The position numbers and the translations under genes were made by a program. The notes beneath the pieces were generated by a model. It ran no database searches and was not told the origin of the DNA. It saw only the letters and a program-made list of their open reading frames with translations. Below are positions 1 through 25,613 of a stretch of 36,862 bases of DNA, in pieces (position 1 is the stretch's first letter; every line of letters begins with the position of its first letter). Origin of the DNA: a virus; the IMG/VR virus record IMGVR_UViG_3300020438_002904, positions 1 through 36,862 of that record; one strand, written 5' to 3'.

Positions 1-800
1 TTCCATAGATCAAATAAATCCTCTCGCCATTCAACTCCATTTGAGTTATAACGTAGTTCCAAGTCACCTGCAATGCCTTGCCTAATTGCTTCTTCAAGTA
101 TTTCATAATGTTCCTCAATAATTAAACTTTCACCACCTGCAAAATATACCTGTTTCATATGAGGCATTTGTTCATAAAATTGTTCCCAAAACTTTGGATT
201 GTGTTTGTGCCAGTTGTAACTGCTTCCGTTTATACTACCTTTGTCTCTCCATTGTGTATTGCTCTTTAAACTAGGATTTTCTATTTGTGGGTGTATAGCT
301 TTCCAATCTTTTATCCAGCCACTGCTATCATGTGGACTACACATTACACAAGCCAATTGACACTTTGTTCCAAAGCGTAAATCAATGTATGCTAACTGTG
401 GAGGAACTTCACCGTTCTCTTTTGTATTCTGTAGTAAACTTTCTAGGTCAACTCTTTGCATCCAGTATTTGGTTTCCCATTGACGTTTACTCATATGTCC
501 TGCCGCTTCTTCTTTGTAACATTTAATACAGCTGGGTGGCTTTTCTCCATTTAGCATTTGCTGTCTTACATTACGCATATAGGTACTGTTCCAACTGCTT
601 TCAAAGTCAGTAATGTTTAAGTTGTTTGGTTTTCCTTCATCATCTTTGAGTACGCCTACCATGCCGCCATGTTTTTTATCATTGGTAGCACCAACACTAC
701 TAGCATTTGCTGTACAACAAACTCGCATACTGCCGTCGGGTCTTGTGCTTAGGTGTACCCAAGGTAAAATGCAAAATGTATCACTGGGTAAATCAGACAT
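1..800 (-). CDS. Radical SAM protein with N-terminal twitch-like region (partial, C-terminus off the window)
   Basis: About 266 codons are present; the gene runs off the left edge. The ATG at 800 overlaps the end of the upstream gene (stop 793-795) by 8 bases. The N-terminal part has the twitch-like pattern of this window's main family: FCILPWVHL (C10), CC at about 28-29, and CIKC at about 91-94. The rSAM core follows with CQLACVMC (C147, C151, C154), ligands for the [4Fe-4S] cluster that cleaves S-adenosylmethionine. The SAM-binding GGEP motif reads GGES (FAGGESLI), an odd substitution. The segment around EEHYEILEEAI matches the paralogs at 20328-21566 and 21566-22843 closely. Substrate unknown. 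No plausible Shine-Dalgarno precedes the ATG, so translation is probably coupled to the upstream gene. Confidence 0.9.
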   Translation of the reverse strand, partial: MSDLPSDTFCILPWVHLSTRPDGSMRVCCTANASSVGATNDKKHGGMVGVLKDDEGKPNNLNITDFESSWNSTYMRNVRQQMLNGEKPPSCIKCYKEEAAGHMSKRQWETKYWMQRVDLESLLQNTKENGEVPPQLAYIDLRFGTKCQLACVMCSPHDSSGWIKDWKAIHPQIENPSLKSNTQWRDKGSINGSSYNWHKHNPKFWEQFYEQMPHMKQVYFAGGESLIIEEHYEILEEAIRQGIAGDLELRYNSNGVEWREDLFDLW

Positions 801-1392
801 TGATTGTAAACTCGTATGGATAATGTTCTATTGTATTTTGTGCTAGTTCTTCGTGAACTACAACATCAGTAATTGATATATTTGACTTTGTTAAAATTTT
901 ATCTAATCCTATTTTACTGCCATTGGGACTGGTAAATGTATTGTGCTTCATATGGTTTGTTAGTTCGTACTTGTTGTATATGTCATTTATAAACCTATCT
1001 TCTCTGTGCATATCACCTGTGAGTATGCAATCATCTTCTACTAGACTTGCAACAAAATCTAATTGCTGATTCATTTTGGTGTGATCATAACTGGTTAAAC
1101 AGTTTATAATTTTGCAATTATCCATGTGCAATACTGGAATATGTTTGCCTTGACTCTGTGCTTCATTGTGTCCAGTATTGTGTGGTAGTTCATAAGTAGC
1201 AATATTTTTGCAACCTCTGACCAGCATTCCATGTGATTTATAATTTTCTATAAACCAACAATCACCAAAATAACTTACTAAGTTTTTTGGAAACCGTTGT
1301 ATTAACATTACGTCACAGTCGCTAAACACCTGCATAATAGGTGTAGGATCTATTCTATCAAAATACCAGACATAACTGCCTACTCTAATCAT
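793..1392 (-). CDS. Putative endonuclease/exonuclease/phosphatase (EEP, DNase I-like) superfamily protein
   Basis: 199 residues. The second half follows the EEP fold pattern: ILTGDMH near residue 124 (family usually GDFN), then SPNGSKIGLDKILTK near 153-167 (the family's 'T...G..IDYIL' strand), and HYPYEF near 191 (family usually SDHYPV). The family includes nucleases, sphingomyelinases and inositol-phosphate phosphatases that use a metal with Asp/His/Asn residues. Here the GDxN asparagine is replaced by His and the terminal SDH reads IEH, so catalysis may be altered. It is coupled to the PP-loop gene upstream (ATGA overlap at 1389-1392) and to the rSAM gene downstream. Its neighbours suggest a small-molecule or glycan role rather than DNA cutting, but this is inference. 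Confidence 0.5.
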   Translation of the reverse strand: MIRVGSYVWYFDRIDPTPIMQVFSDCDVMLIQRFPKNLVSYFGDCWFIENYKSHGMLVRGCKNIATYELPHNTGHNEAQSQGKHIPVLHMDNCKIINCLTSYDHTKMNQQLDFVASLVEDDCILTGDMHREDRFINDIYNKYELTNHMKHNTFTSPNGSKIGLDKILTKSNISITDVVVHEELAQNTIEHYPYEFTINV

Positions 1393-2183
1393 GATGTTTC
1401 CTTTTCAGTACCCCAAGGATGCGGATTGATAGCCCAAGCACGTTCTTGACACCACCAACACACATTACAAGTCTTTGTCCAATTATCTGTGCGTTCTCTA
1501 TTGCCTTCACAACTGCGACTAATAGTATTTAATTTTTCAAAAACATCAAACTGTTTGGCAAGATAAATGCACACACGCTTGTCTGTATTACGAAATGGTT
1601 CTACCATTCTTTTATTTGTATTATTTGCTCCATGAATAACTGTGCAACTATCTTCAGCTACTGCCGGACTATTTGCATCATTGTGGTCACGTTTTAATTC
1701 TCTGTTCTCATGTTGATTTTCAATTGACATTGGTACTGGAGGATTTTTTGTAACACCATTATAATCATGAAGCTCGCAATCATGCCAACTTTGATTTGCT
1801 GGTGGGCCATCTAAGTGTTGCTCATTGACTAAATTTCGTTGAGCATCAGTGTAACTTACGTTTCCATTTTCCCACCATTTAAATGCATCTCTCCAAATTT
1901 TGTCTTTGATATCTGCTGTTGGAAATTCACTGCGAACCCAATCAACAATACCATCTACAATAGGTCTATTATCAACCCTATGCCAACTTGGATATTCGTC
2001 TTCATTTGTTCTAACCACAGTTAATGGTTGTATAATAGCTTTTGAATTTGCTTCAACACAAGTCTTTGCTATCATATACAGTAATAAAGCACTATCAAAC
2101 CCGCCACTGGTCCTAACAGTTATTATCGGACTAGATATAGGTATGTGTACGTTGCCATATGGTGTTTCATAAATTTTTGTCAT
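1389..2183 (-). CDS. QueC-like PP-loop ATP pyrophosphatase
   Basis: 264 residues. An N-terminal PP-loop is clear: SGGFDSALLLYMIAK around residues 27-41, the SGGxDS signature of N-type ATP pyrophosphatases that adenylate a carboxylate or carbonyl. The C-terminal part has the QueC-type zinc pattern: RSCE followed by TCNVCWWCQERAWA (Cys-x2-Cys-x2-Cys near 240-246). QueC converts carboxy-deazaguanine to preQ0 using ammonia. The middle (about 110-200) is rich in Asn, His and Asp and longer than in QueC, so the substrate probably differs. No folE, queD or queE homologue is recognisable nearby. Coupled by ATGA overlaps to rSAM upstream and the EEP-like gene downstream. A second, shorter homologue lies at 6272-6937. 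Confidence 0.8.
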   Translation of the reverse strand: MTKIYETPYGNVHIPISSPIITVRTSGGFDSALLLYMIAKTCVEANSKAIIQPLTVVRTNEDEYPSWHRVDNRPIVDGIVDWVRSEFPTADIKDKIWRDAFKWWENGNVSYTDAQRNLVNEQHLDGPPANQSWHDCELHDYNGVTKNPPVPMSIENQHENRELKRDHNDANSPAVAEDSCTVIHGANNTNKRMVEPFRNTDKRVCIYLAKQFDVFEKLNTISRSCEGNRERTDNWTKTCNVCWWCQERAWAINPHPWGTEKETS

Positions 2184-3121
2184 AATTCTTCCTTAATAAA
2201 AATATCTCTTTTGTTTTGTTTACATACTTGTTCACAACGTGGTATTCTAAACTCGCTGGTCCAACTGTCTTTAATATCAGTCCAAACTTTTCCGTTAATA
2301 GCCTGATCTATACTAACATTGTTGAGATTAATATCATTCATATAGTCTTGCTCTATTAGAATATCTTCAAATCTATCTTTTCTTTTATTACTTACTGGAT
2401 ATTCCAACATCTTTGCATTTAGATGACAACATGGAATAACATTGCCCATGTGATTTACAAATATTCTTTTTTGATTTCCGTACTTACAACTGATACTTGG
2501 ATTTTCTTCTACTTTAACTTTTTTATGTTTAACCCCGCCTGTATCTTTTCTATGACTTATAATAGTTTTAAATTCTTTAAATCCTTCGTCTTTGGCCATT
2601 TGCCTTGCAGTCTCCAATTGATGTTCATTGTGTTCAAAACTAATAAACTGCCAATTGGCTCTACCCCCAGCGGCAATAAATGCCCTGTAGTTTTGTTGAA
2701 CTTTTTTAAAATTTGAACCTTCTCTGTACACTTCACTAAGCTCGTCACTGCCATCAATACCCCATACAACTTTATGACTAGGAGGAAGTATAGTTGCTAA
2801 CTTTTCCCACCATTTTGTTGTGCGTAGACTTCCGTTTGTAGCAATATTGATATGTGCATTCCAATCTGCAAAATGTTCTATAATTTCGTGAAACTGAGGA
2901 TGACTGCATGGCTCATCAACACTACCACAAAAATTAATAATTCTAATATTAGGAAACATTTCTTTTTGAAACTTTTGTTTAAGTGTATCAAGATCCAAAT
3001 AGGTTTTGTTTAATATCTTATCGGCATGTTCACTCATCACACGAAAACAACCTTTGCAACGAATATTACAAAAACTTGTAAGTTCAATATCAATCCATTC
3101 TAATGTTTCAATTGACCACAT
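2180..3121 (-). CDS. Radical SAM protein with C-terminal SPASM-like region (CGxxxEP subtype)
   Basis: 313 residues from the ATG at 3121, chosen because GAGG sits about 6 bases upstream and the overlap with the previous gene is only 14 bases; an ATG at 3190 would overlap by 83 bases and adds residues unlike its paralogs. Core triad CNIRCKGC (C18, C22, C25). The usual GGEP strand is FCGSVDEP, and WQFISFEHNEHQ is the subtype's second signature, shared with the genes at 3108, 5190, 17967 and 25918. The C-terminal region has CKYG, a GNVIPCCHL strand and a final CEQVCKQ, probable ligands of an auxiliary Fe-S cluster. SPASM/twitch enzymes oxidise or epimerise sugars, peptides and cyclitols; the substrate here is unknown. 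Confidence 0.9.
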   Translation of the reverse strand: MWSIETLEWIDIELTSFCNIRCKGCFRVMSEHADKILNKTYLDLDTLKQKFQKEMFPNIRIINFCGSVDEPCSHPQFHEIIEHFADWNAHINIATNGSLRTTKWWEKLATILPPSHKVVWGIDGSDELSEVYREGSNFKKVQQNYRAFIAAGGRANWQFISFEHNEHQLETARQMAKDEGFKEFKTIISHRKDTGGVKHKKVKVEENPSISCKYGNQKRIFVNHMGNVIPCCHLNAKMLEYPVSNKRKDRFEDILIEQDYMNDINLNNVSIDQAINGKVWTDIKDSWTSEFRIPRCEQVCKQNKRDIFIKEEL

Positions 3122-4190
3122 TGTGTTCCTCAATTTTAAATTTTGCAATAGGTCTATCAACTTGACTTTTAACACTACAGGTGCTAGCACATTTTACCAT
3201 TTTATCACCACACTCCATTCCATAATCTTTTTCAAAACTGTCTACTATATCTTTTTTATAAAAAGGGTGTTCAAGTATCTCATCTACACTATGTAAATCT
3301 AATCTATTCCAATCATTGTCGTTGTATACATCATGCATAATACTTTTTACTTGATGCCAATGAGTATTGTGTCCACCAAATTCAGAATTGCGTATAAAAC
3401 AACAGGGCCATAGTCTAGCATTAAAATCAATAAAATACATTTGTTCATTTTTAAAATAACAATCAATTTTGTTTTTTTCAAACTGCTGAAATCTATCGAA
3501 TAGACCTTGCATGTCAAACTGTTCATTTAATCTTGCAGGTCTATTTGCTTTTTTAATTTGCATTATATCGTCGATGTCCCAGTCTTTTTCTCTGACTATA
3601 CTTCTATCTATTCTATGTATAAAAGTTTTGAAACCCATTTGTTTACTCAGTTCACTGGCTTCTTCAACTTGATGTTTGTTCCAAGGAAAAACTAGATATT
3701 GCCAACCTGCTGTTCCTCCTTCGTCTATAAATGCTTGTGCATTTTCCATTATCTTATCAAAGTTTGTACGCTGTCTATACAAATGGTTGGTATCTCGCAA
3801 ACCATCTACACTAAATTTTAAATTGTGCATGTCAAACTGTTTGAGTATTCTAGCTGACTCTCGCCAATAATCTGTTTCTCTAATGCTTCCATTGGTATGG
3901 ATAAAGATGTTTTTAATACCACTATCCAATGCTAGCTGTAATATATCATTGAACTGCGGGTGCATAAAAGGATCATCTACAGTTCCACAAAAATCCAAAC
4001 CAGTAACAGATTCAAATTCAGTAAATGCTTTTTTTAATGTACTTAATTCTAATATTTTTTTGTTTGGTATAAGAGGTAGTTTACCATTGAAGTTTGCTTT
4101 GTCCGTGCGGGCACACCCATAGCACAATGCATTGCACATACTGCTAATTTCTAGTTGCAATTTCGTAGGATTTTTCAAATAATGGTGCAT
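3108..4190 (-). CDS. Radical SAM protein with C-terminal SPASM-like region (CGxxxDP subtype)
   Basis: 360 residues. Core triad CNALCYGC (C19, C23, C26). It has FCGTVDDPF where most rSAM enzymes have GGEP, then FSVDGLRDTNHLYRQ and YLVFPWNKHQVEEA, both almost repeated in the gene at 5190. The C-terminal half carries CYFKNEQ, RLWPCCFIRN and a final cysteine group around CGDKMVKCASTC, fitting a SPASM-like auxiliary cluster. The start at 4190 has GGAGAG about 10 bases upstream and overlaps the preceding rSAM gene by 47 bases; no later in-frame Met precedes the triad region except M18, which sits too close to it. Part of a run of four consecutive rSAM genes read leftward. Confidence 0.92.
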   Translation of the reverse strand: MHHYLKNPTKLQLEISSMCNALCYGCARTDKANFNGKLPLIPNKKILELSTLKKAFTEFESVTGLDFCGTVDDPFMHPQFNDILQLALDSGIKNIFIHTNGSIRETDYWRESARILKQFDMHNLKFSVDGLRDTNHLYRQRTNFDKIMENAQAFIDEGGTAGWQYLVFPWNKHQVEEASELSKQMGFKTFIHRIDRSIVREKDWDIDDIMQIKKANRPARLNEQFDMQGLFDRFQQFEKNKIDCYFKNEQMYFIDFNARLWPCCFIRNSEFGGHNTHWHQVKSIMHDVYNDNDWNRLDLHSVDEILEHPFYKKDIVDSFEKDYGMECGDKMVKCASTCSVKSQVDRPIAKFKIEEHNVVN

Positions 4191-5193
4191 CTATATATTT
4201 CTCTCCAACAGCAATATCTTTAACTTTTGTAGTTTGTAAATCTGTTAAACAACCACAATAATCTAATTTACACAATACTGGTAACAAAGGAACGCTGTAT
4301 TCTTTGTCTTTAATATTTCCATATTTTAACCATTTAAAACAATTACTGCCAGGTTTAATATGTCCTTGGTGTTGTACTACTATTGTTTCTATACCCATGT
4401 TACAATACCATCCATTCCAGTTATTCAAATGTGTCAATAACAATTCTTTTTCAATACTATGTACTCTTACTGGTTCTTCTCCTATTTTTCTCCATTGCAT
4501 TGGGTTTTGTTGTTGGTGTCTATTCTCGCCATGTTCTTTCTGCGGTAAATTTTGCATTATACTCAACTGTTGTTCTGTATAATTTTGTAATTGAGCTTTT
4601 ATAATTGTTGTTCTCAATGGTTTAAACTGTAGCTGTGGTCCTTTGCAATTATTATATAGGTATTTATAGGTCTCTATACAAGTATCAAATGCATTTGTAT
4701 CTACCATGACATGTAAACTAACATCTATAACGCTGTCGTAAACAGCATCAAACTTTTCACTGATCTCTTCATTTTTTGATTGACCATGATGTACACTTAC
4801 AATTATACTATTAATCAAATGATTTCTCTTTGTCCACCATTTGACATTTCGTGTTCCGTTTGTTAATAATCTAATTTGATTATCGGTATTAAGTCTTTTA
4901 ACGTGTTCACAAAAACGATCTAAGTTGGGCCATAGTGTTGGTTCACCAGCATGTATATTGAAATACAATATTTTATTTTGTGGTATACAAACATTTTCCC
5001 ATAACCAATCAATGAAACGAGTACAATCATCAATATCATGCCATGGAGTTTTTCCTTCGTAAAACAAAGGATCACAGTAGGTGCAACTAAAATTACACAT
5101 ACTGCCTACTGCCCAATCAACTATGAGAAAAGGCTTATAAATTCCGCTTTTAGATTTACGTGGTTCAAAAATATCATATATATGTTTGCTCAT
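4144..5193 (-). CDS. Radical SAM protein, HAGEP subtype
   Basis: 349 residues. Classical triad CNFSCTYC (C33, C37, C40) after a WAVGSMC lead-in; SAM-binding strand reads FNIHAGEPTLWP; the next strand is LLTNGTRNVKWW. A histidine-rich SVHHG replaces the sequence other members have near SVDG. Four C-terminal cysteine positions (WYCNMG, NCFKW, LCKLDYCGC) suggest an auxiliary cluster. It differs clearly from its neighbours on both sides and is the only member of its subtype here, so it probably acts on another substrate or step. The start ATG at 5193 overlaps the previous stop as ATGA. Confidence 0.92.
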   Translation of the reverse strand: MSKHIYDIFEPRKSKSGIYKPFLIVDWAVGSMCNFSCTYCDPLFYEGKTPWHDIDDCTRFIDWLWENVCIPQNKILYFNIHAGEPTLWPNLDRFCEHVKRLNTDNQIRLLTNGTRNVKWWTKRNHLINSIIVSVHHGQSKNEEISEKFDAVYDSVIDVSLHVMVDTNAFDTCIETYKYLYNNCKGPQLQFKPLRTTIIKAQLQNYTEQQLSIMQNLPQKEHGENRHQQQNPMQWRKIGEEPVRVHSIEKELLLTHLNNWNGWYCNMGIETIVVQHQGHIKPGSNCFKWLKYGNIKDKEYSVPLLPVLCKLDYCGCLTDLQTTKVKDIAVGEKYIDAPLFEKSYEIATRN

Positions 5194-6272
5194 TCGAATT
5201 GTGCTCCAAAAGGATCAAACTCTGATCCACATTTCATAGCACAAACTCCTAATTTGCCTTTTTCAATGCTGTCTAAACTCCAGCTGTTTTCAATATCTTT
5301 GAGTAAACTACCTTCCATTACTGTTTGAAGATCATTGTTTATTATATCAATTCCGCCTTTACCACCAGAGCGATCAATGTGATCCCATATTTGTTCTACT
5401 CTATAATCTTTGTGCCACCACTTGTACATTCGCCCGGCTGTCCAACAGCATGGCATTAGCAAGCCTTCTGCTGTAACAAATATTTCTTTTTTCCCTACTG
5501 CTTTACAATTAATTTGACACTTGTTGTAATAATCCATCATACTGCCATATGTTTTTTTAATTTCAGCAGTTTTTTCCAATGCTATATTTTTATTTTCTTT
5601 TTTAGCAGGCTCTGCAATAGCCTGTGTTTGTTCACCTTTTCTATTTCTTGCTTGATGTACTTCTTTGCGTTCACTACCAGCAGTAAAGAATCTTGCAGAC
5701 TTTTTCTTTTGAAAACGTTCTACTCCCCAGTCTTGTGCCAACTGCTCTGCTTCTTCAACCTGGTGTTCGTTGTGTCCAAATATAATAAAATCCCAACGAG
5801 CTCTACCACCAGCATCTATAAATGCTCGCATGTTGCGTTCAACATTATCCCAAACAACATTTTGCCTGTACAAGTGATTTGTATCACGCAAACCATCAAC
5901 ACTAAAAATTACTGCACCCATACGACCATATACTTGAGCAAGTTCACGCCACCATTCTACAGGTTTTGCTCCAGCATTTGTATTCATGCTCAGCCACATG
6001 TTTTTGTTATGACTTCTAAAATAATCAAATACTTCAAGGCTATCTCGTGCAACTATAGGATCTCCCAAGTTGCCACACATGTACATGTTGTTTAATTGTT
6101 GAATAAATGCGGGTGTAAAGATTGATTGACAGTCGCTTAAACTAAGTTCAGCATTGGTTATATGACGATTGTCTTTACCGCCATTTTCATTTCTGTCACA
6201 CATTGGGCAAGCGGCTTGGCACTTTTGCGTAATCTCCAAATGAACTTGTTCAATGTCATCATAATTGTACAT
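5190..6272 (-). CDS. Radical SAM protein with C-terminal SPASM-like region and Lys/Glu-rich insert
   Basis: 360 residues from the ATG at 6272; a TTG at 6275 is in frame but less likely. The ATG overlaps the upstream stop (TGATG). Triad CQAACPMC (C18, C22, C25). Subtype signatures MCGNLGDP, FSVDGLRDTNHLYRQN and FIIFGHNEHQVEEA match the genes at 3108 and 17967. Between the core and the C-terminal GLLMPCCWTAG strand lies a hydrophilic insert (about residues 200-240) rich in Lys, Glu and Gln and absent from the closest paralogs. The final VCAMKCG supplies further Cys ligands. Substrate unknown; it sits between a QueC-like ATPase upstream and three further rSAM genes downstream. Confidence 0.92.
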   Translation of the reverse strand: MYNYDDIEQVHLEITQKCQAACPMCDRNENGGKDNRHITNAELSLSDCQSIFTPAFIQQLNNMYMCGNLGDPIVARDSLEVFDYFRSHNKNMWLSMNTNAGAKPVEWWRELAQVYGRMGAVIFSVDGLRDTNHLYRQNVVWDNVERNMRAFIDAGGRARWDFIIFGHNEHQVEEAEQLAQDWGVERFQKKKSARFFTAGSERKEVHQARNRKGEQTQAIAEPAKKENKNIALEKTAEIKKTYGSMMDYYNKCQINCKAVGKKEIFVTAEGLLMPCCWTAGRMYKWWHKDYRVEQIWDHIDRSGGKGGIDIINNDLQTVMEGSLLKDIENSWSLDSIEKGKLGVCAMKCGSEFDPFGAQFE

Positions 6273-6937
6273 CAAACATATCTACCAAATCCCCATAACC
6301 TTTCTTTACAAAACCAACATTCACCACAATGTTCACTGAAGTCTGTGGTATGTATTTCGCAACTTCTGGTCAATGGGAATAATTCTTCTAGTACGCCTAA
6401 TCTTACATAGTGTTCATGTACACCTTTTTTATCCACATTAATCAATGGTCTGTTACTAGTACCAGTTACATAAGATTTTTTTGTGTCTTGCTTTTGTCTA
6501 TCGTTGTACCATGCACTTTCAAATTCTGTTGGATCTACTAGTTCTGGGGCTTCTTCGGCTGTAGGGTTTGCTGTAATTCCACTAAAATGTAGGCTTAAAT
6601 CAAATTTCTCATAAACACTCCATACAAGTTTATCTTGGTCTGGTACATAATTATGATCGCTTCTAACACTTTCTGCTGTATGTTCTCCAAACTTATAATC
6701 TAATAATTGTTCTATTTTTACTATAACTTGTTTGGAAAATATTCCTTGAAATGGTTTTAATTCTCCTACACCTGTAATTGGATAAATTGTGATATCTGGT
6801 CTCTGTTCTTTGCAATACTTGGCTAGCATGTATGCAACAATAGTACTATCAGTACCACCACTCATTTTTATTCCAACTCTTTTTACATCAGGATCTATGT
6901 TCATTTCATATGAATCTTGGCTGTTTTCAAATAACAT
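6272..6937 (-). CDS. QueC-like PP-loop ATP pyrophosphatase (second copy)
   Basis: 221 residues, close to the usual QueC length (about 220-230). The N-terminal PP-loop is MSGGTDSTIVAYMLAKYC (about residues 25-42). The C-terminus has RSCEIH and HCGECWFCKERLW, matching the QueC zinc site (Cys, then Cys-x2-Cys-x2-Cys). The enzyme type activates a substrate with ATP and transfers an amine or amide. It is distantly related to the gene at 1389-2183 and, like it, is followed directly by an rSAM gene. In queuosine synthesis QueC works after the rSAM enzyme QueE, but none of the rSAM proteins here is an obvious QueE and the other pathway enzymes are not seen. Function beyond the family is unresolved. 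Confidence 0.82.
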   Translation of the reverse strand: MLFENSQDSYEMNIDPDVKRVGIKMSGGTDSTIVAYMLAKYCKEQRPDITIYPITGVGELKPFQGIFSKQVIVKIEQLLDYKFGEHTAESVRSDHNYVPDQDKLVWSVYEKFDLSLHFSGITANPTAEEAPELVDPTEFESAWYNDRQKQDTKKSYVTGTSNRPLINVDKKGVHEHYVRLGVLEELFPLTRSCEIHTTDFSEHCGECWFCKERLWGFGRYV

Positions 6938-7168
6938 TTAATTCTCCATAACTAATTTAATTTCTTTTCCTGGACCTGCACGACTAGGTAAATCTCCATA
7001 TGTATTTACATACCATTGGATCACTGTAAGATACCAAGTTTGGCTATTATGATGTGCTTTTTTATTAAATTTATATATGTTATTATTGGTTGCTTGCATT
7101 GTAGCTAGTGCTCTAGCACATTCAGTTTGCATCTCTCTAAGAGTTAATTTGGTATTGGCTTTTTCCAT
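6938..7168 (-). CDS. Small protein of unknown function (76 residues)
   Basis: Not recognised. It starts with an ATG overlapping the upstream stop (7168-7170) and its own TAA abuts the ATG of the PP-loop gene at 6937, so it fits the operon exactly. The protein is soluble, helical at the N-terminus (LREMQTECARALATMQ), basic in the middle (YKFNKKAHHN), and ends with WYLTVIQWYVNTYGDLPS. No cysteine motif, signal peptide or membrane segment. It is not repeated elsewhere in the window. A small partner of the PP-loop enzyme is possible but only from position. Confidence 0.7.
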   Translation of the reverse strand: MEKANTKLTLREMQTECARALATMQATNNNIYKFNKKAHHNSQTWYLTVIQWYVNTYGDLPSRAGPGKEIKLVMEN

Positions 7169-11342: not shown

Positions 11343-11366
11343 TTTAACTCCATTAAGTACATAGTT

Positions 11367-14155: not shown

Positions 14156-14868
14156 GTAAAATCTTCTATTATGTTTTCTTTGATATTTAAACTATCTTGA
14201 TTGCCCCAATAATTTACTTCTTGCTGTTGTACAAGTTCCATACTCAAGTTTTGGAGATCTTCGTAGTTAATTATTATTTCATCTTTAGGTGGACTTATAT
14301 TAGTGTATTCTTTCGGAAAGTTTACAATAGCTATTGGATCTGTCATACATAATCCAATATTAATCCAGTCTTGTTTTGTATCTCTGGTAAGTTCATCATA
14401 ACGTACCCATTTGTCTACTTTTATATTATAGTAATTGTTCTTTAGTTTCATTGTTTCCCAATAAAAACCTTTCCAAAACATTTTAAACATCATTGGATCA
14501 ACCTCTATTGGCTTTATATCTTGTTGGTTTGCATACCATTGGTCTTTTGTAACACTTACACACAGACTAGCAGTTAATTCAAATATATTAGGTCTCCACA
14601 CTACAACAGTAAAGTCCATTAGTCCTTTTAACCTGTCAAGCTCTTCAGGAGGCATTTGAGGCAAATGTAATGTATGATTTTTTATTACTGCTCTAGGAGT
14701 TTGTGCAATTAGATCTAATTGTTCGCTAAATGTCGAACTGTCTCTGAAGTCACTGTTAAACGGTTCGTTACCAAAGTCTACTTGTTGTTTAGTTACATAA
14801 TGTTGTCTAATAACATTATATAGATATGTAGTACCACTTCTTGCTTGTCCTAATAAATGTATTCTCAT
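14146..14868 (-). CDS. Sulfotransferase-family protein
   Basis: 240 residues. LLGQARSGTTYLYNVIRQHY (residues 4-23) is the 5'-phosphosulfate-binding loop typical of PAPS-dependent sulfotransferases. FTVVVWRPNIFELTASLCVS (about 86-105) fits the 3'-phosphate motif (Arg and Ser spaced by about eight). EPFN and AVIKNH also match the family. It would transfer sulfate from PAPS to a hydroxyl, here probably of a glycan, and the APS-kinase-like gene at 10914-11342 could supply PAPS. The ATG overlaps the stop of the rSAM gene upstream (ATGA) and the 3' end overlaps the epimerase gene by 10 bases. Confidence 0.82.
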   Translation of the reverse strand: MRIHLLGQARSGTTYLYNVIRQHYVTKQQVDFGNEPFNSDFRDSSTFSEQLDLIAQTPRAVIKNHTLHLPQMPPEELDRLKGLMDFTVVVWRPNIFELTASLCVSVTKDQWYANQQDIKPIEVDPMMFKMFWKGFYWETMKLKNNYYNIKVDKWVRYDELTRDTKQDWINIGLCMTDPIAIVNFPKEYTNISPPKDEIIINYEDLQNLSMELVQQQEVNYWGNQDSLNIKENIIEDFTCS

Positions 14869-16091
14869 AACCAGCCCTCATATTCAGGAATAACATCAAC
14901 AATATTTTGTTTTCTAATTGGATCATATAGTTTAACTCTTTTTTTGAATTCTTCCCAATCACTGCCGTGACCAATAGGATCAACAGTTTTAATATGATTG
15001 TAAATACCTTCCCAAGTTTTTTCTTCAATGATATCTTTCCAATGCGGTTGCCATTCATTGTTTATTTTGTTTAACAGTTGTTTCTTTAGTTCTTCAGGCA
15101 TATTGGTTACACATGAGCCGCCGTCATAAACATAATTTGGCCAAATTTTGACTACGCCTTTGAATTCCCGTTCATAATATTCAAAACTACGCATTAGATC
15201 CCATACGCTGTAGTTGCTGATACTATAGCTGATCTTAGGTCTAAACCCATGATCCCAAACAAAACGTTTTAAATTTTTTTTAAATACGTCCCACTTGCCT
15301 GGATATCTTGCATATTCAAAAGTAGGGCCAATTCCATCAGCACTGAACAGCATATGCACAATTTTAAAATGAGGCCAGATGTTGTCTATTGCATTTTTTG
15401 GATAAACACTACCATTTGTAGCATAGTTCAAAGTTATGTTTTGTGCATATCCTTTTTTGATAATTTTTTCTAAAAATTGAAATTGCTGTTTAATTAAAAA
15501 AGGCTCTCCTCCATATAAATCAATTTGGTCGATATGTGGTAAAAACATTTCTAGTGTTTCCCAATATTCTTGACTTTCATACCATTTCATATTGTGATTT
15601 TGTTTACTATTAAAATAGTTATCAAATCCTGCTTGCCGTAGATCGTCTACCCAACGACTGCTACTCCAGGCATTGCAAATTCTACAAGCTAAATTACATA
15701 GATTGCCCAACTTTAAATCTAAATATTTGTGTGTAAATTTATTTTCAGTTATCATTATTCCTCGATCGGCATAACCTAGATTTTCTCTCATGCGTCTTGT
15801 TACACCACCATCAGCTTCTTCAATATAACATTCTTCACAGCCTCTAACAGGTTTATCTTCTAGTGCCTGTTGACGCATTTCAACTGCATCTTTACTGTTT
15901 ACAATGTCTTGAATATTGTGCGTTGCCGCATTGAAAGGCACACCTTTTTCATCCTTATAAACAGTCCTGCTTACACAACAAGGTGCAACATGTCCAAATG
16001 TTTTAATTTCATAATGAAGGAACGGTAAAGCACAAAAATACTTGGTTTCGAGCTTTTGTCCATCTTTACTTCTAGAGTAATCTGTTTCCAT
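14865..16091 (-). CDS. Radical SAM protein with N-terminal twitch-like region
   Basis: 408 residues. N-terminal cysteines: FCALPFLHYE (C20), APCC (C38-C39), RGCEECY (C85, C88), the layout of the twitch-domain rSAM family in which an auxiliary Fe-S cluster region precedes the core. The core has LKLGNLCNLACRICNAWSSS (C132, C136, C139), YGGEPFLI, YATNGSVYP and FSADGIGPTFEYARYPGKW, the last shared with the gene at 26667. Unlike the other rSAM genes it sits next to the sulfotransferase and sugar block and is separated from the main array by two unknown genes. The 45-base gap upstream (16092-16136) holds no clear promoter; GTTAAATA at 16131-16124 is a weak late-promoter-like match, and AAGG lies far (about 16 bases) from the ATG. 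Confidence 0.93.
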   Translation of the reverse strand: METDYSRSKDGQKLETKYFCALPFLHYEIKTFGHVAPCCVSRTVYKDEKGVPFNAATHNIQDIVNSKDAVEMRQQALEDKPVRGCEECYIEEADGGVTRRMRENLGYADRGIMITENKFTHKYLDLKLGNLCNLACRICNAWSSSRWVDDLRQAGFDNYFNSKQNHNMKWYESQEYWETLEMFLPHIDQIDLYGGEPFLIKQQFQFLEKIIKKGYAQNITLNYATNGSVYPKNAIDNIWPHFKIVHMLFSADGIGPTFEYARYPGKWDVFKKNLKRFVWDHGFRPKISYSISNYSVWDLMRSFEYYEREFKGVVKIWPNYVYDGGSCVTNMPEELKKQLLNKINNEWQPHWKDIIEEKTWEGIYNHIKTVDPIGHGSDWEEFKKRVKLYDPIRKQNIVDVIPEYEGWL

Positions 16092-16136
16092 ATCGATCGA
16101 GTTTTTACCTTAATTTCTCGTTGTATTTAACAATTT

Positions 16137-17156
16137 TTATAATTGGGCTTTGCGTTCATTGTACCAATCTAGCCAACTATAATCCCAACTCTTGTTAGCT
16201 AATTTATTGTTGTTTTCATCTAATAGACTAATACTATAAATGTCGTCGTATTTCCACAGTTCCATCATAACCAGCATATTGTCTTGTGCAAGTCCACTTT
16301 CTTCTTTATTGATATCACCAAATATGCACCAACCCAAGCTAAGTGTTTTATCATTTACATCAATTTGTTTTTCCATACACCATGTACGAAACGAATCCCA
16401 ATCTTCACTTTCTTTTCCGCTATTCAAATTGATATCAAACTCGCCGCTCAAATAGCGTATGCCACTTATATTACTGTTATAGATATCTTCATCATCGTCG
16501 TGCCATGCTTCTCTGTGTGTTTTACCTGTTTGTGCATAGTGCATTCTTATTTGGCCAAATTCTTGATCCTTCATTTCAAAATGATCATAGTCTCCATTTT
16601 CCAATACCATGTCATGTCGTATAATAGGCTTCATACAAATAACAATACTACTTGAACTCCTGCCTAATTTATATGCGTTTATTCCTCTGAGTTGACTTTC
16701 TATTTCATGGCACAACCAATTAAAGTTGTTAATACTAAACTGATGAGGTAGATCAAATTTCTCGTAAATTGGATTTTTGTTCCATATTTGTCCAATTAGT
16801 ATTTCAAAATGATGATGTATTTTGTTTAATTTGTCTTGATTAACTGTATCTGGATCAAAGTGCAAATTAATAATATCGTAATCAATTGCATGTTTTATAC
16901 AGTAGTTGTTTACTTTGTCAATGTGAAAATTAAGCTCTTTACACATAAAAGGTATACTACGTTCGTTATTTGTTTTTGGATATACCCACCCATGTAACAT
17001 AAATTGTTTTTCTATTCTTGCTTCAGTTTCCAAGTAATCAGTCTGTAGTGCTTGGGCCCATTTTTGTGCTAGTGCATGTTCTCTAATATCCCATACAACA
17101 TCTTTTGAGTCAGTGTCCTCGGTGTTCCTGAGTGTTATTACTAACTTTTTGTACAT
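16137..17156 (-). CDS. Unknown protein, paralog of the adjacent upstream gene
   Basis: 339 residues, not recognised. It is distantly homologous to 17156-17986. Both begin with a short beta-strand start (YKKLVITLR / TQFLIKFYW), share a helical middle with an FEILIGQ / YEILIDQ segment, then DHFEMKDQEFGQIRMHYAQT against EHMDLFTPGYTQRCLYLGYS followed by a GKT triplet, and finally FRTWC / YDEWC and a GWCIFGD / GQIEIGK strand. Strongly acidic, rich in Trp, His and Asn, without signal peptide, membrane segment or cysteine cluster. It ends at the 45-base gap before the rSAM gene at 16091. A substrate, scaffold or binding protein for the rSAM enzymes is possible but only from position. Confidence 0.8.
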   Translation of the reverse strand: MYKKLVITLRNTEDTDSKDVVWDIREHALAQKWAQALQTDYLETEARIEKQFMLHGWVYPKTNNERSIPFMCKELNFHIDKVNNYCIKHAIDYDIINLHFDPDTVNQDKLNKIHHHFEILIGQIWNKNPIYEKFDLPHQFSINNFNWLCHEIESQLRGINAYKLGRSSSSIVICMKPIIRHDMVLENGDYDHFEMKDQEFGQIRMHYAQTGKTHREAWHDDDEDIYNSNISGIRYLSGEFDINLNSGKESEDWDSFRTWCMEKQIDVNDKTLSLGWCIFGDINKEESGLAQDNMLVMMELWKYDDIYSISLLDENNNKLANKSWDYSWLDWYNERKAQL

Positions 17157-17986
17157 TATTCTCTGAGCTCCACTTCTACTTTATCAAAAGGTTTTAGCTG
17201 ATATGCATGTGAATCTGCTAGTTTACCTATTTCAATCTGACCCCATTGCCTTGGATCTTCATGGTCAACTCCTTGTGCGTTTTGAATACACCATTCATCG
17301 TACTTGTCCCAATCCCATATTGCATTGAAGTATGGCAACATTATTTCATTGGTAATGCTTTGTTTTGGATTACTTTGTTTACGCTGTGCCGCTTGCTTAT
17401 CATCAGCTTCGTACATGTGCCATAGTGTTTTGCCTATTTCACTGTAGCCTAAATACAAACAACGCTGAGTGTATCCTGGTGTAAACAAGTCCATGTGTTC
17501 TTCTCTGAGTGGTATTTTCTTAAATGGATCCATTCTAAAACTTAACCAGCTACCTTCATATCCAACTCTATCATTTTCTAAGTTGTGTATGTTGTCATTG
17601 AATTTACTGATTAATGGACCTAGCCATCTATTTTCCTCATTACTGACCTGATCAATAAGTATTTCGTACTCTTCAACATAGTTGTGCAAATAATTAAGTG
17701 TATCTTGATTCCATCCATCAAGTATAATTTCTGGATTTATTTTTCCTATTGTATCATTATATATTTTTGTTTCTAATAACTGTTTAGCTTGTCTATACAG
17801 TTCGCAATACTTGTTAACAGTTTCGCTTTTGGTAAACACCATACTAGTATTGTATACTGGAACATCACTACCATGCTTTACAGTTTTAACAAAGTCTTCA
17901 ACTGCTGGATTATTGTCGTATAAATTGTACAACAACTGGCTTTTTTGATCCCCTTTCCAATAAAATTTAATTAAGAATTGTGTCAT
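17156..17986 (-). CDS. Unknown protein, paralog of the adjacent downstream gene
   Basis: 276 residues, not recognised; see 16137-17156 for shared segments. In this copy LREEHMDLFTPGYTQRCLYL (about 178-197) and SEIGKTLWHMYEADD form the best conserved block, followed by YDEWCIQNAQGVDHEDPRQW. The ATG at 17986 overlaps the end of the rSAM gene upstream by 20 bases, and its TAA overlaps the next ATG (TAATG), so the pair is translated together. No catalytic motif is evident. Being a tandem pair embedded between rSAM genes makes them candidates for a dedicated partner or acceptor. Confidence 0.8.
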   Translation of the reverse strand: MTQFLIKFYWKGDQKSQLLYNLYDNNPAVEDFVKTVKHGSDVPVYNTSMVFTKSETVNKYCELYRQAKQLLETKIYNDTIGKINPEIILDGWNQDTLNYLHNYVEEYEILIDQVSNEENRWLGPLISKFNDNIHNLENDRVGYEGSWLSFRMDPFKKIPLREEHMDLFTPGYTQRCLYLGYSEIGKTLWHMYEADDKQAAQRKQSNPKQSITNEIMLPYFNAIWDWDKYDEWCIQNAQGVDHEDPRQWGQIEIGKLADSHAYQLKPFDKVEVELRE

Positions 17987-19133
17987 GACCTGGCCCCGCT
18001 TTTGTATGAATCAATCTATCTATAGGACTATTGTCTCCACAAATTTTAGCACAGTACATACACTTGCCTTCTTCGTATGATTGATAACTCCAAGACTTTA
18101 ATACTGTTAAGTCTAGATAATTCATTATATCACTAAATCTATTTTTTGTCAAGTCCAAGTACTGCATATCCCACATATTTTCAAGTTGTCTTTTTGCATC
18201 ATCTTGTCTTCCGCTTGTCCATAATTCTCCAATGTAACAGCAAGGCATAACAGTACCATCACATTGTATCATTATTTCACTACCATTTCCTTTTAGACTT
18301 TTGCAATCTATATTATGATACTGATATTGTTTGTATGCTTCAGGAGCATATAAATCTTCCCATTTTTCTGGAGGTTTACCCACACTTGGTGAAGGATCTT
18401 GTAAGTTTCTTTCCATGCTTATTGGTGCATTCACATACTGTAAATCTGTTGCGGCTTCAATATAATATTCTAAATCACCTATATTATCATACACACCTCT
18501 TTTTTGTATTTTGTTATCCCATACCAACCCATCAGGATTTTTAATTCTAACACTTTTAAATCCTATCTCTTTGGCTAATTTCTTGACATCTTCAATTTGA
18601 TGTTCGTTGTGTTTGAATACAAGCATATCCCAATAAGCTGTACCACCTGCTTCTATGAATGCTTGTGCATTACGCATTAACTTATCCCAATTTACATTTC
18701 TCCTATACAAATGATTTGTATCTTCTAGTCCGTCGATACTAAACCACATAAACCATTTAGGATTCTTTTTTAGTATCTTACCTGCTTCTCTCCAAAGATT
18801 TTCACTTCGTAATCCACCATTGCTGTGAGTTACTAATTGTTTGTTGTATGGTAATACACTAGCACAATAATCTAATATCTCAACAATATCTTTTGCGGCA
18901 AAAGGATCTCCTTGATTTCCACACAACATCATTCTATCTACATTTTTTGACATCAGATCAACAGGAAACCAATTTTTAAACTGTTCAATTGTAATGCTCG
19001 TTGGCACAAGACCTGGTCTTGTTATTTTACTACCTGCCCAATAGCGAGGGCATATAGGACAAGCGGCATTACATACATTGCTTAGTTCTACATGAAACTG
19101 ATATTGATTGTATTTAGGTTGTGTCCAGCTCAA
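17967..19133 (-). CDS. Radical SAM protein with C-terminal SPASM-like region (CGxxxDP subtype)
   Basis: 388 residues, read from a TTG at 19133 (the TTGA overlaps the upstream stop; GGAG lies about 9 bases ahead; the next Met is past the active-site triad). Triad CNAACPIC (C21, C25, C28). Signatures MLCGNQGDP, SIDGLEDTNHLYRRN and MLVFKHNEHQIED tie it to the genes at 3108 and 5190, about 11-14 kb away. C-terminal region: CKSLKG, GTVMPCCYIGE, and CMYCAKICGDNS as likely auxiliary-cluster ligands. It is the last rSAM of the main array and is followed by the unknown paralog pair. Confidence 0.93.
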   Translation of the reverse strand: MSWTQPKYNQYQFHVELSNVCNAACPICPRYWAGSKITRPGLVPTSITIEQFKNWFPVDLMSKNVDRMMLCGNQGDPFAAKDIVEILDYCASVLPYNKQLVTHSNGGLRSENLWREAGKILKKNPKWFMWFSIDGLEDTNHLYRRNVNWDKLMRNAQAFIEAGGTAYWDMLVFKHNEHQIEDVKKLAKEIGFKSVRIKNPDGLVWDNKIQKRGVYDNIGDLEYYIEAATDLQYVNAPISMERNLQDPSPSVGKPPEKWEDLYAPEAYKQYQYHNIDCKSLKGNGSEIMIQCDGTVMPCCYIGELWTSGRQDDAKRQLENMWDMQYLDLTKNRFSDIMNYLDLTVLKSWSYQSYEEGKCMYCAKICGDNSPIDRLIHTKAGPGHDTILN

Positions 19134-20347
19134 AACAAAAACTCCAACTTAGGAAACACAGTAGGACAATCTTCTCGTCTTGTGTTGTCTAATGCTTTTG
19201 TAAAATGTACAAATGTTTCTCTAGCTGAATCGTAATTCAACTCATTGTGATATCTACCCATCAAATCTGTGTGCATGTGTTCTGGTAGTTTAACTGTTAA
19301 ACTATCTAATTTTTGTTTACGCATTTTGTCTGGTATAATGTAAGCTGTTTGATAGTCTGGACTATGCACATGGTTATAATAATGATACAAGTCTATATCG
19401 TTGTCTTGTAGCCATTGCCAAAGTTCTTCTACATATAAAAAGTTGTACACATTTACAGTTTGACAAATCAATAGTTTTATGTTAGGGTAACGTTCTTGAA
19501 ATAAACGAATGTTTTTTATACTCAATTCCCAATTGGCAGGGTTGCGTATGTATGCGTTTCTTTGGTCAATATCATCTAAACTTAGATTAAATCTTACTCC
19601 GTTAAATTTACTGAGTATTTCTAATCCAGGTTTAATTTTATCCAAGTCATAGTTGAGATTAGTATGGTATCCTATGTTTATATCAGTCTTTCCTCGATCT
19701 AATAATCCTTGCAAAAACTTAAAATGTCTTGGGACTAAAAAAGGTTCACCACCACTTATATGTAACTCTCGTAAATCACCGGTGTGTTCTAATATGTCTT
19801 GATAAAAATCATCGCTGTCTACCCAATCAAAACTGTAGCGATCTTCAGCTCGAATATTATCATACGCACTTGCCAATGGTAGCTTGTCTTTGAGCATATC
19901 ATATTCTTTTATCCATTTTGTACTGCTCTCAGCATTGCAACTTCTACAGCGTAGGTTGCAATGATTACCTAGCCTAAGTTCTATGCTACGCAAGTTAGGT
20001 TTAATTGTACCGTCTGCTTCGGTAACTGCTTGCCAGTCATCTTTCCAAATACTATCTCGGATACGTTTGCTTCTACCTCCACTGTCTTCAATTTTTTTAC
20101 AGCCCATACAAGCATCTGGAACTTTACCTTGTAACATTTCTTTGCGTATGCGTTTATAGTTGTCGCTGTTTATGATTTGTTCTATGCTATAATTTTTTAC
20201 ACCAAGTATATTCTTTTTACCTCGTTCATCGATGTTATACCCATGCCCTATTGCTTTCTTATGTTCTGCTTCACAGCATACACTAGTACTGCCATGTGGG
20301 AACATACTAAAATGTACCCAAGGTAAATCACACAGGAATTGCATCAT
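19130..20347 (-). CDS. Radical SAM protein with N-terminal twitch-like region
   Basis: 405 residues. N-terminal LCDLPWVHFS (C6), VCC (C24-C25) and CMGC (C80, C83) form the twitch-like cysteine set. The core triad is CNLRCRSC (C130, C134, C137) after SIELRLGNH; SGGEPFLVPRHF and FNLSLDDIDQRNAYIRNP follow. The FxxSLDDID...YIRxP run resembles NASIDDIETRAEYIRKG in the next upstream gene. It overlaps that gene by 20 bases and the TTG-started gene downstream by 4. No other domain. Substrate unknown. Confidence 0.93.
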   Translation of the reverse strand: MMQFLCDLPWVHFSMFPHGSTSVCCEAEHKKAIGHGYNIDERGKKNILGVKNYSIEQIINSDNYKRIRKEMLQGKVPDACMGCKKIEDSGGRSKRIRDSIWKDDWQAVTEADGTIKPNLRSIELRLGNHCNLRCRSCNAESSTKWIKEYDMLKDKLPLASAYDNIRAEDRYSFDWVDSDDFYQDILEHTGDLRELHISGGEPFLVPRHFKFLQGLLDRGKTDINIGYHTNLNYDLDKIKPGLEILSKFNGVRFNLSLDDIDQRNAYIRNPANWELSIKNIRLFQERYPNIKLLICQTVNVYNFLYVEELWQWLQDNDIDLYHYYNHVHSPDYQTAYIIPDKMRKQKLDSLTVKLPEHMHTDLMGRYHNELNYDSARETFVHFTKALDNTRREDCPTVFPKLEFLF

Positions 20348-21566
20348 ACCATTCCTTTAAATGTGGGAAAACAGTTGTAAATTTTTCCTGTCTCATATCA
20401 TCTAACGCATTTTGTTTTATTTTGAACTGTTTGCGTAAATTTTGTACGTCATCAAAATTTTGCATGTTATTCATATATTCAACTATTGTTTGAAATTTAG
20501 TCTTTAAATCATTTTGTATGTTTTCTGGTTGTGTAGTTACATAGTTTGCTAGCTTTTGTTCTACTTGTTGTTTAAGTTCATCGCTTAATATTTTAACTGT
20601 AAAACTTCTTGGATACTGCAAGAGATTGTGCAGTTGAACTCTAAACATTGGTAAACCAATTTCATGTAATCTTTGAAACAGTTCAGGTAGAGTCATCACA
20701 TTCATAGCTTGTGTAGTGCAGTCTACATTTAATCTAACGTTTGTATCTAGCAATCTTTTGATATTATCTTCAATGTCTTGCCATTTGGTTCCTTTGCGTA
20801 TGTATTCTGCTCTTGTTTCTATATCATCTATACTTGCATTTACTTGTACTAGATCAAAACGTTTCCACATGTCAACTAAATCAAAGTCTCTGAACTTTAA
20901 TTTTAGTAAATTGCTGTTGTATCTAATTTTCACATCAAAACGTTTATGATCAATAAGTTTTTTAAGTATGTAATAGTGTTCTTCCATTATAAGTGGTTCG
21001 CCACCTGCAAAGTAACAATACTCCACATCTTGAATTTTGCTATCAACCCATTCTTTAAGATTTATTTGTGATTTTTCTTGACTGTTTACAACTCTTTTTT
21101 CTACGCTAACTTTAGCTAGTCCTCTACGTTCTAGTTCAACTTCATCATCAAACCATAAACTACTAAACCCAGTTCCGCACATTCTACATTTCATATTACA
21201 CAAGTTACTGAATCTAAAATCCCAATACTTGAAAGTTACTTTGTTTATACTTCCGTCTGTATTAGTATTGTTGATTAGTTGAGGTATGTCTTTGCTAAAA
21301 TATTCATTATGATGTTGCCTCATGCTTATTACATTGTATTGTTCTCTTTCAAAACACCTTATACAACTATCGGGCTTTTCATTATTTAAAAGTTTGAGTC
21401 TTAGTTTTTTATACTTTTCATTGTTGATAATTTCATCAGGACTACCATCACTTAGATCGCCCATAGCACTTTCTTTATGACCAAGGCAACAATGATGCAC
21501 TTTTCCATCTGGATGAAAGTGTAGATGTAACCAGGGTAATACGCAGAATGTTTCACTTACTGTCAT
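20328..21566 (-). CDS. Radical SAM protein with N-terminal twitch-like region (tandem copy A)
   Basis: 412 residues. FCVLPWLHLH (C8), HHCC (C26-C27), SCIRC (C68, C71); core DFRFSNLCNMKCRMCG (C123, C127, C130); FAGGEPLIMEEHYYILKKLI; YNSNLLKLKF; NASIDDIETRAEYIRKGTKW. Almost every one of these runs recurs in the next upstream gene (21566-22843), so the two arose by tandem duplication; the partial gene at 1-800 belongs to the same subgroup. The start ATG overlaps the upstream stop (TGATG). The C-terminal 110 residues are helical with many Lys and Gln and carry no cysteines. Confidence 0.94.
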   Translation of the reverse strand: MTVSETFCVLPWLHLHFHPDGKVHHCCLGHKESAMGDLSDGSPDEIINNEKYKKLRLKLLNNEKPDSCIRCFEREQYNVISMRQHHNEYFSKDIPQLINNTNTDGSINKVTFKYWDFRFSNLCNMKCRMCGTGFSSLWFDDEVELERRGLAKVSVEKRVVNSQEKSQINLKEWVDSKIQDVEYCYFAGGEPLIMEEHYYILKKLIDHKRFDVKIRYNSNLLKLKFRDFDLVDMWKRFDLVQVNASIDDIETRAEYIRKGTKWQDIEDNIKRLLDTNVRLNVDCTTQAMNVMTLPELFQRLHEIGLPMFRVQLHNLLQYPRSFTVKILSDELKQQVEQKLANYVTTQPENIQNDLKTKFQTIVEYMNNMQNFDDVQNLRKQFKIKQNALDDMRQEKFTTVFPHLKEWYDAIPV

Positions 21567-22843
21567 CAGCTATTCCACTGCTTGTCGTACTGTTGCTTTG
21601 CCTCCTGGTAAAAATCTGTTAACTCTGGAAAAATTTCAACAAAACTTTCTTTTCTATGTTTGTCTAGCATATCTGTAACTTCACAAAACTTTGCTCTAGT
21701 AAAATTCAATTTTTCATCATCCATATCATTTTTCAAATAACTTGTAATACTATCGTATTTGTTTTTGAGATCTTGTTTTCCATTTACATCACCAATACTA
21801 GTGATGTGTTGGTCAAAAGATTCTTTTATTTCCTGTTTATCATTGTCTAATAATATATTTACATGATACCATTGGGGATTTGTCAACACATTATTCAAAT
21901 GTATTTTTGTTGGATCTAATCCTTTGCTAAACAACCAATCAACAAATTGAGTAGTTGCTTTTACATTGAACAAGTTAATAGTTGGTGAAATATTGAACAT
22001 GATGTCTTCTTGACTTATCCTATCAACATTCTTTTCAATAGTGCTCCATACTGTACCTTTGCGTATATATTCTCCTCTAGTATCCATAGCATCTAAACTT
22101 GCAATCACATTTACACTATCAAAATGTTTCCATAATTCTATGTTATCCCATTTTTTAAAGTTTAACTTTAGTAGGTTAGTATTGTATCTTAGTTTTACAT
22201 CAGTACGCTTTTTTTCGATTAACTTTTCTATAATGTAATAGTGTTCGTCCATTATAAGAGGTTCGCCGCCAGCAAAGTAAATTTCTTCAACATGTTCTAT
22301 GTGTTGGTCTAACAATTCATACAAGTTATCTACGCTGAGATCTTTAGTGTTTACAACACCACCAGGAGCTGACTCACTTGATTTACCATAGACAGCCAGT
22401 TCATCTGCATTCCATAAACTGCTTAAATGACCTCCACACATTCTACACTTCATGTTACAAAGATTACTGAATCTAAAGTCCCAATAGTATAGTTTCATAT
22501 CTTCTACATGCCCAGAACTATCTGTTTTTTCATCTACAGTTCCAACGTGTTCATTAAAAGTAAAGTTTGCATTTTGTCTAAAACTAGTGATGCCCATTTC
22601 TTCTTGTTCATAACATTTTTTACAGCTTTCAGGAAAATCACCATTTAATAACTCTTGCCTTAGATTACGCATGTATTCATTGTTAAAAACTTCTTTTAGT
22701 GTATTCTTTTTAAGATCGCCGATAACATTTCTATAATCAGTAATACAACATTGAAACACACTACCATTGGGCCAGGTATTCATATGAACCCAAGGTATAA
22801 TGCAAAAACTTTTGCTGGGATCTTTATTAGGCCCTTTCTGCAT
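21566..22843 (-). CDS. Radical SAM protein with N-terminal twitch-like region (tandem copy B)
   Basis: 425 residues. FCIIPWVHMN (C14), QCC (C32-C33), SCKKC (C74, C77); core DFRFSNLCNMKCRMCG (C129, C133, C136); FAGGEPLIMDEHYYIIEKLI; YNTNLLKLNF; IASLDAMDTRGEYIRKGTVW. It is the sister of 20328-21566, with divergence mostly in the region between the N-terminal cysteines and the core and in the C-terminal helical part. A strong Shine-Dalgarno, GGGAGGAAA, precedes the ATG by about 8 bases, so this gene may be translated independently. Confidence 0.94.
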   Translation of the reverse strand: MQKGPNKDPSKSFCIIPWVHMNTWPNGSVFQCCITDYRNVIGDLKKNTLKEVFNNEYMRNLRQELLNGDFPESCKKCYEQEEMGITSFRQNANFTFNEHVGTVDEKTDSSGHVEDMKLYYWDFRFSNLCNMKCRMCGGHLSSLWNADELAVYGKSSESAPGGVVNTKDLSVDNLYELLDQHIEHVEEIYFAGGEPLIMDEHYYIIEKLIEKKRTDVKLRYNTNLLKLNFKKWDNIELWKHFDSVNVIASLDAMDTRGEYIRKGTVWSTIEKNVDRISQEDIMFNISPTINLFNVKATTQFVDWLFSKGLDPTKIHLNNVLTNPQWYHVNILLDNDKQEIKESFDQHITSIGDVNGKQDLKNKYDSITSYLKNDMDDEKLNFTRAKFCEVTDMLDKHRKESFVEIFPELTDFYQEAKQQYDKQWNS

Positions 22844-24182: not shown

Positions 24183-24184
24183 GA

Positions 24185-25612: not shown

Positions 25613-25613
25613 C

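Follow-up and report, generated by a model that had tools for sequence, protein, structure and literature searches.

QueC turns acids into amides and nitriles, and enzymes of the QueC superfamily act by adenylation of a carboxylate, which is then attacked by an amine; SPASM/twitch radical S-adenosylmethionine (rSAM) enzymes often act on peptides. We analysed two QueC-like genes, g8 and g3, that lie among rSAM genes in a marine virus, IMG/VR virus record IMGVR_UViG_3300020438_002904, all 36,862 bases of which are called the window below. Among the described systems, Cap9 is the QueC-like deazaguanylation ligase of the type IV cyclic-oligonucleotide-based antiphage signaling system (CBASS), and joins an acid to a protein (PMC11996544, PMC13279940). 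The Y and D of a YxD motif bind deazaguanine in both Cap9 and QueC, while QatC replaces both residues (PMC13279940), and the canonical QueC signature has been defined as cluster 1 of PF06508 (PMC13329287). CmoY of cyanophage S-B43 (PMC12783734) is, like the activity proposed below for g8 and g3, a phage ATP-dependent amide ligase working on a carboxyl handle, but it belongs to the asparagine-synthetase family and acts on carboxymethylcytosine in DNA. In pelagimyophages, rSAM cassettes are found in the hypervariable host recognition cluster (PMC7029224), and a T4-like environmental genome has 12 rSAM genes (PMC5332604). The window resembles both in its tail-proximal, rSAM-rich island of variable cassettes; as far as searched, the text of neither paper mentions QueC, and the QueC-like family and its rSAM fusions appear to be undescribed in the literature found. 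The two genes are as follows.

6272..6937, minus strand: g8, a QueC-like PP-loop ATPase of 221 amino acids with SGGTDS (Pfam QueC, family profile, fold match)
1389..2183, minus strand: g3, a second QueC-like PP-loop ATPase, of 264 amino acids with SGGFDS, from another clade of the family of g8 (family profile, tree)

We think it reasonably probable that g8 and g3 encode ATP-dependent carboxylate-amine ligases that are swappable partners of rSAM tailoring enzymes in a phage host-recognition island. The family to which they belong has intact ATP and zinc motifs, is linked and in places fused to rSAM genes, and has lost the substrate motifs of canonical QueC. The type of reaction is most likely that of the superfamily, and the linkage and fusion suggest that g8 and g3 are coupled to the rSAM enzymes; the family probably adds a chemical group to a molecule of the host or one made by the virus.

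The two genes differ in how readily they are recognised. The g8 protein passes the Pfam QueC model (4.4e-7, 30 bits, cutoff 22), whereas g3 alone matched no Pfam family and had a weak match (2.5e-3) to a QueC family of PHROG; phmmer matches of g3 to PDB chains were set aside as chance. Single-sequence searches with g8 and g3 returned nothing in phages or IMG/VR, and the family was reached by a search with the neighbouring rSAM gene g4, which gave 45 viral loci, followed by a family-alignment search of IMG/VR, which yielded at least 540 confirmed stretches. The family is common in ocean viruses; its members mostly adjoin SPASM/twitch rSAM genes, and in some cases the two are fused. Family profiles built without the clade of the query recovered g3 at 3e-41 and g8 at 4e-67, and 0 of 20 shuffles of g3 scored at E<1 in this control. 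Both genes are under purifying selection: the ratio of nonsynonymous to synonymous rates (dN/dS) is 0.13–0.20 against the nearest relatives, where dS is near saturation, and 0.13–0.16 between two of these relatives, where dS is unsaturated.

The family belongs with QueC at the level of the superfamily. The profile of the family aligns with that of canonical QueC over its full length, including the zinc site (probability 97–98%, E 3e-10), and Pfam searches with 17 members at E up to 0.1 matched QueC in 13, NAD synthase weakly in 8 and asparagine synthase in 1. The AlphaFold2 model of g8 (pLDDT 94) has Cap9 as its best PDB match (9nto_B, E 2e-7), followed by NAD synthetase, NcsA and TilS, with no canonical QueC structure among the 50 PDB matches listed; in a fold search of a viral library with the same model, phage proteins named QueC were prominent. 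A preliminary description of this DNA had pointed out SGGxDS and a C-terminal cysteine pattern in both proteins and taken them to be QueC-like, and these points hold: each protein carries a C-terminal SCE-(x)n-CxxCxxCxER zinc pattern, and the QueC affinity is borne out by Pfam, the profile–profile alignment, the shared zinc site and the fold match to Cap9. As Cap9 outranks NAD synthetase in the fold search, placement of the family inside the asparagine or NAD synthases, which that description had named as the outcome that would speak against it, is not supported. In the tree, 95 family members are split from 9 canonical QueC proteins (SH-aLRT 100, branch 1.7).

Motif conservation was scored over 87 aligned relatives. 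In the SGGxDS loop S26, G28, D30 and S31 are invariant and G27 is 98% conserved. The four zinc cysteines are also invariant, with a first spacing of x10 in g8 and x13 in g3 compared to x8 in the canonical C(x)8CxxCxxC, and the first of them is followed by E in 81% and by D in 12%. K170 is present in 100% of relatives, P164 in 94% and F or L at position 165 in 81%. The YxQxHxxE, VPxRN, YPDC and Y189 elements of canonical QueC are not conserved in this alignment, nor is the base-recognising YxD pair of YPDC, and in their place we find KP[YWF][QN], YxGxTxNPP, RD and SCE. Because the residues that recognise deazaguanine are not conserved, we take the family, on its sequence motifs, to lie in the QueC superfamily yet not to consist of QueC, QatC or Cap9 orthologues.

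These features set the family apart from each described relative in a different way. It shares with canonical QueC the superfamily, the ATP loop, the zinc cysteines and the conserved lysine, but g8 and g3 are not in a queD/queE operon. The likeness to Cap9 comprises, besides the fold, small size, SGGxDS, the CE before CxxCxxC and P[FL](x)4K, whereas the g8/g3 family has neither the YxDC nor the RN motif and is phage-encoded with rSAM genes. No CD-NTase was found in the Pfam scan of the window and no MGGS start near the genes, starts being called mechanically. QatC of the qatABCD defence system likewise has a QueC core with an altered substrate motif, but is ∼400 amino acids long, with N- and C-terminal extensions and QatA, QatB and QatD as partners; the PADLOC QatC profile matched 1 of 17 family members (E 0.042).

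The separation from canonical QueC is also apparent in cells. A genome scan with the family alignment gave 12 loci, several in large Bdellovibrionia contigs. A family member occurs in 7 of 144 Bdellovibrionia genomes, and a separate canonical QueC was found in all 26 Bdellovibrionia genomes tested, including six with the family. Similarly, in virus G185 the beginning of a canonical QueC (YGQ, VPFRN) is found among the genes next to FolE, and L164, a family member, lies on that contig too. From this coexistence we conclude that the family is, as judged by sequence, a paralogue and not a synthase of 7-cyano-7-deazaguanine (preQ0). Three loci from metagenome-assembled genomes labelled Pacearchaeota, Chloroflexi and Acidimicrobiaceae (L047, L049 and L051) are probably misbinned viral contigs, since L049 falls inside a viral clade of the tree.

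The association with rSAM genes extends across the family. Of the 89 distinct unfused members in loci found via the QueC family alone, 66 have an rSAM gene in the locus DNA examined; of the 83 internal ones, 41 are directly adjacent to an rSAM gene on the same strand, compared to ∼24 expected for the other non-rSAM genes of these loci. When the loci found via g4 are added, a biased set, 62 of 113 members touch an rSAM gene against ∼31 expected; both statistics use loci of shared ancestry. Fusions of an N-terminal SPASM-type rSAM domain to a C-terminal QueC-like domain, ∼830–870 amino acids long, occur in six viral loci (L013, L015, L017, L021, L022 and L025). Some members without a nearby rSAM gene adjoin a DNA-polymerase-like gene or head genes, as judged by eye. 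Several single loci are of separate interest: L163, a virus contig of 518,643 bases, has two QueC-like genes within a dense run of rSAM and tailoring-type genes; in L104 and L117 a lone QueC-like gene without a nearby rSAM gene lies ∼4–5 kb from a QueD-like gene; and L123 has a tandem QueC-like pair (3713–5059) next to genes for a Dam-type methylase and an IMP dehydrogenase.

The preliminary description noted that FolE, QueD and QueE are not visible, and indeed none of the three was found in the 37-kb window, where, as in all contigs used here, gene calls are mechanical and the sequence is a fragment, so that absences are weak. The statement does not extend to related viruses, in which FolE-QueE is present in the closest relative and several others, and QueD in a few. 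Among 20 long viral contigs with relatives of g4, the sample used for these counts, FolE is present in 10, a QueE-like frame directly follows FolE in 8, and QueD is present in 3; the TGT family of Pfam matched in 0 of the 20, and nothing in them scored above ∼23 bits for QueC. Of 26 other contigs, 8 also carry FolE; one of these belongs to L097, the closest relative, and has QueE after FolE. A 251-kb relative, G004, has FolE, QueD and QueE, while profile searches of it (positive control 4e-90) found no canonical QueC, DpdA2 or 9g DpdA, other DpdA types not being searched. Since related viruses, the closest included, encode FolE-QueE, 7-carboxy-7-deazaguanine (CDG) may be available in infected cells. 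The phage QueE has, by eye, ∼50 residues inserted between CNFRC and GCDT, in the cluster-binding loop. An operon of FolE and a QueE with the long insertion occurs in the marine T4-like phages L089 (8304–9883), L249, L244 and L250.

If g8 and g3 work as the superfamily does, ATP would adenylate a carboxylate in their active site, and the adenylated carboxylate would be joined to an amine, in the form of ammonia or of an amino group carried by a larger molecule, with no preQ0 made. The rSAM enzymes and the QueC-like ligase would act on the same target, and the ligases would be exchangeable partners of SPASM/twitch rSAM enzymes in a hypervariable, tail-proximal island of T4-like marine phages. 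The proposal that the pair activates an acid for amide formation is still the best generic reading. As the target, a peptide or protein made during infection is our tentative first choice, because the closest fold is that of an enzyme joining an acid to a protein and peptides are frequent substrates of SPASM/twitch rSAM enzymes; the suggestion of protein modification is plausible. A sugar or glycan comes second, possible though doubtful, and is nearly as likely owing to the gene content of the island, and free 7-deazaguanine chemistry is a quite unlikely third. A hundreds-strong viral lineage of the QueC superfamily beside or fused to rSAM genes is a lead to unassigned ligation chemistry; it connects the rSAM cassettes, so far unexplained, that abundant marine phages carry with a second class of enzyme, and its function is directly testable given the well-defined assays for the relatives QueC, Cap9 and QatC.

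Several observations weigh against a ligase partnered with rSAM enzymes. For 21 of 87 members there is no rSAM gene within three genes, and for 23 of 89 there is none in the locus DNA examined; as about a quarter of the relatives have no nearby rSAM gene, the family does not depend on an rSAM partner in cis. Moreover, rSAM genes are so dense in these loci that part of the adjacency is background, and no precursor peptide or acceptor was identified, the small neighbouring protein g9 being predicted to fold.

One rival explanation is that phage FolE, QueD and QueE make CDG, which the QueC-like protein attaches, as such or after alteration by an rSAM enzyme, to a protein, in the manner of Cap9 in CBASS. 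The pathway genes in the long contigs and in L097, their presence in G004 without canonical QueC or DpdA/DpdA2 by profile, the rank of Cap9 in the fold search, and the P[FL](x)4K and SCE motifs common to the family and the Cap9 signature (PMC13329287) are consistent with it. We nevertheless hold it unlikely: the base-recognising pair is absent, no MG[GT]S-type acceptor N-terminus is found near the genes (starts predicted mechanically), FolE and QueE map outside the island and might have a different role, and FolE is missing from many of the contigs that carry the family, fragmentary as these are. A bolder version is more unlikely still: ocean phages would make CDG with their own FolE-QueD-QueE, and the QueC-like ligases and rSAM enzymes would attach it, or an acid altered by radical chemistry, to host proteins or those of the tail region. 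This would amount to a phage-encoded protein–nucleobase conjugation system, of a kind so far described only in bacterial defence. Somewhat better placed, but still rather doubtful, is modification of a nucleotide sugar or glycan by the rSAM enzymes and QueC-like ligases, for instance by amidation of a uronic acid, to decorate the virion or host surface. The same island has sugar-metabolism-like genes at 9,039–14,155 (carbamoyltransferase, SIS isomerase, APS-kinase-like, nucleotidyltransferase-like and pentulose-phosphate-epimerase-like), and glycosyltransferases are typical of the host recognition island of pelagimyophages (PMC7029224). In other loci, however, such sugar-type genes do not figure among the frequent neighbours of QueC-like genes, and within PF06508 sugar amidotransferases are confined to the WbpG cluster, whose cysteine motifs differ (PMC13329287).

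Amidation of a carboxylated base in phage DNA has CmoY as a precedent (PMC12783734), and some solo members lie beside the DNA-polymerase-like gene, the Dam-type methylase or the IMP dehydrogenase gene mentioned above. We regard it as improbable given the lack of TGT/DpdA in the 20 contigs, the lack of a DpdA2 profile match in the 251-kb relative and the position of the window genes among tail and rSAM genes; DNA modification, which the preliminary description had offered, is thus left unsupported. Finally, g8 and g3 might be ordinary PP-loop ATPases of the NAD- or asparagine-synthase type with a convergent cysteine motif. This would account for the weak NAD synthase matches in 8 of 17 members and the second rank of NAD synthetases in the fold search, but it fits poorly with the Pfam QueC matches in 13 of 17, the full-length profile match that includes the zinc site and the first rank of Cap9, and is very improbable.

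The neighbouring genes, transcribed in the order g9-g8-g7-g6-g5-g4-g3-g2-g1, and a further rSAM block are as follows.

6938..7168, minus strand: g9, 76 amino acids, abuts g8; predicted small helical fold (alignment, AlphaFold2 pLDDT 87)
5190..6275, minus strand: g7, rSAM, directly downstream of g8, ∼60–75% identity and kept in most relatives (Pfam PF04055, 4.9e-7)
4144..5193, minus strand: g6, rSAM (Pfam PF04055, 2.5e-7)
3108..4190, minus strand: g5, rSAM (Pfam PF04055, 6.9e-10)
2180..3190, minus strand: g4, rSAM/SPASM, directly upstream of g3 (Pfam PF04055, 9.2e-7; SPASM, 7.3e-6)
793..1392, minus strand: g2, uncharacterised, downstream of g3 (no Pfam match; synteny)
3..800, minus strand: g1, SPASM/rSAM, cut by the window end, 78–82% identical in relatives (SPASM, 3.9e-4; CxxxCxxC motif)
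14865..28771, minus strand: g20, g23–g28 and g30–g32, a second block of rSAM genes in the same island (Pfam Radical_SAM/SPASM)

The minus strand encodes all likely genes of the window; genes judged by eye to be tail-like occupy the high-coordinate end, and the cut g1 the low end. The reported interleaving with rSAM genes is real, as 14 window genes match Radical_SAM of Pfam, 2 of them below the curated cutoff, in addition to g1. It had also been stated that both QueC-like genes immediately precede an rSAM gene, which is correct for g8, directly before g7, but not for g3: the end of rSAM g4 overlaps g3, and the next gene is g2. The order rSAM g4-QueC-g2 is seen again in L047, and most viral loci recovered by the g4 search have a g4 of 72–92% identity. 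In the closest relatives, L097, L098 and L108, g8 is 67% and g3 63–64% identical; these three contigs maintain g8-g7-g6-g5-g3-g1 (57–78% identity) without g4 and g2, so that g3 stands directly before rSAM g1. Between g9 and g7 the relatives differ: some have no gene there, some a QueC-like gene and some an unrelated one, which points to exchangeable modules.

The g9 protein is conserved along its length (49–73% identity, 22 invariant residues across 19 viral relatives) and had no Pfam or fold match; a disordered precursor peptide is disfavoured, because g9 is predicted to be folded. An endonuclease-like assignment of g2 had no Pfam support and was dropped, and names given by eye to neighbours in other loci (HTTM, 2-oxoglutarate oxygenase, short-chain dehydrogenase, amidinotransferase, sulfotransferase), which also lack Pfam support, were not used as evidence. 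In the second rSAM block, g27 passes the NCBIfam model for twitch rSAM proteins, NF033640 (286 bits, cutoff 170). One rSAM protein of the window is seemingly split into a core, g30 (25918–26676), and a SPASM-like piece, g29 (25614–25931), and a split pair of this type also adjoins QueC-like genes in L040–L046.

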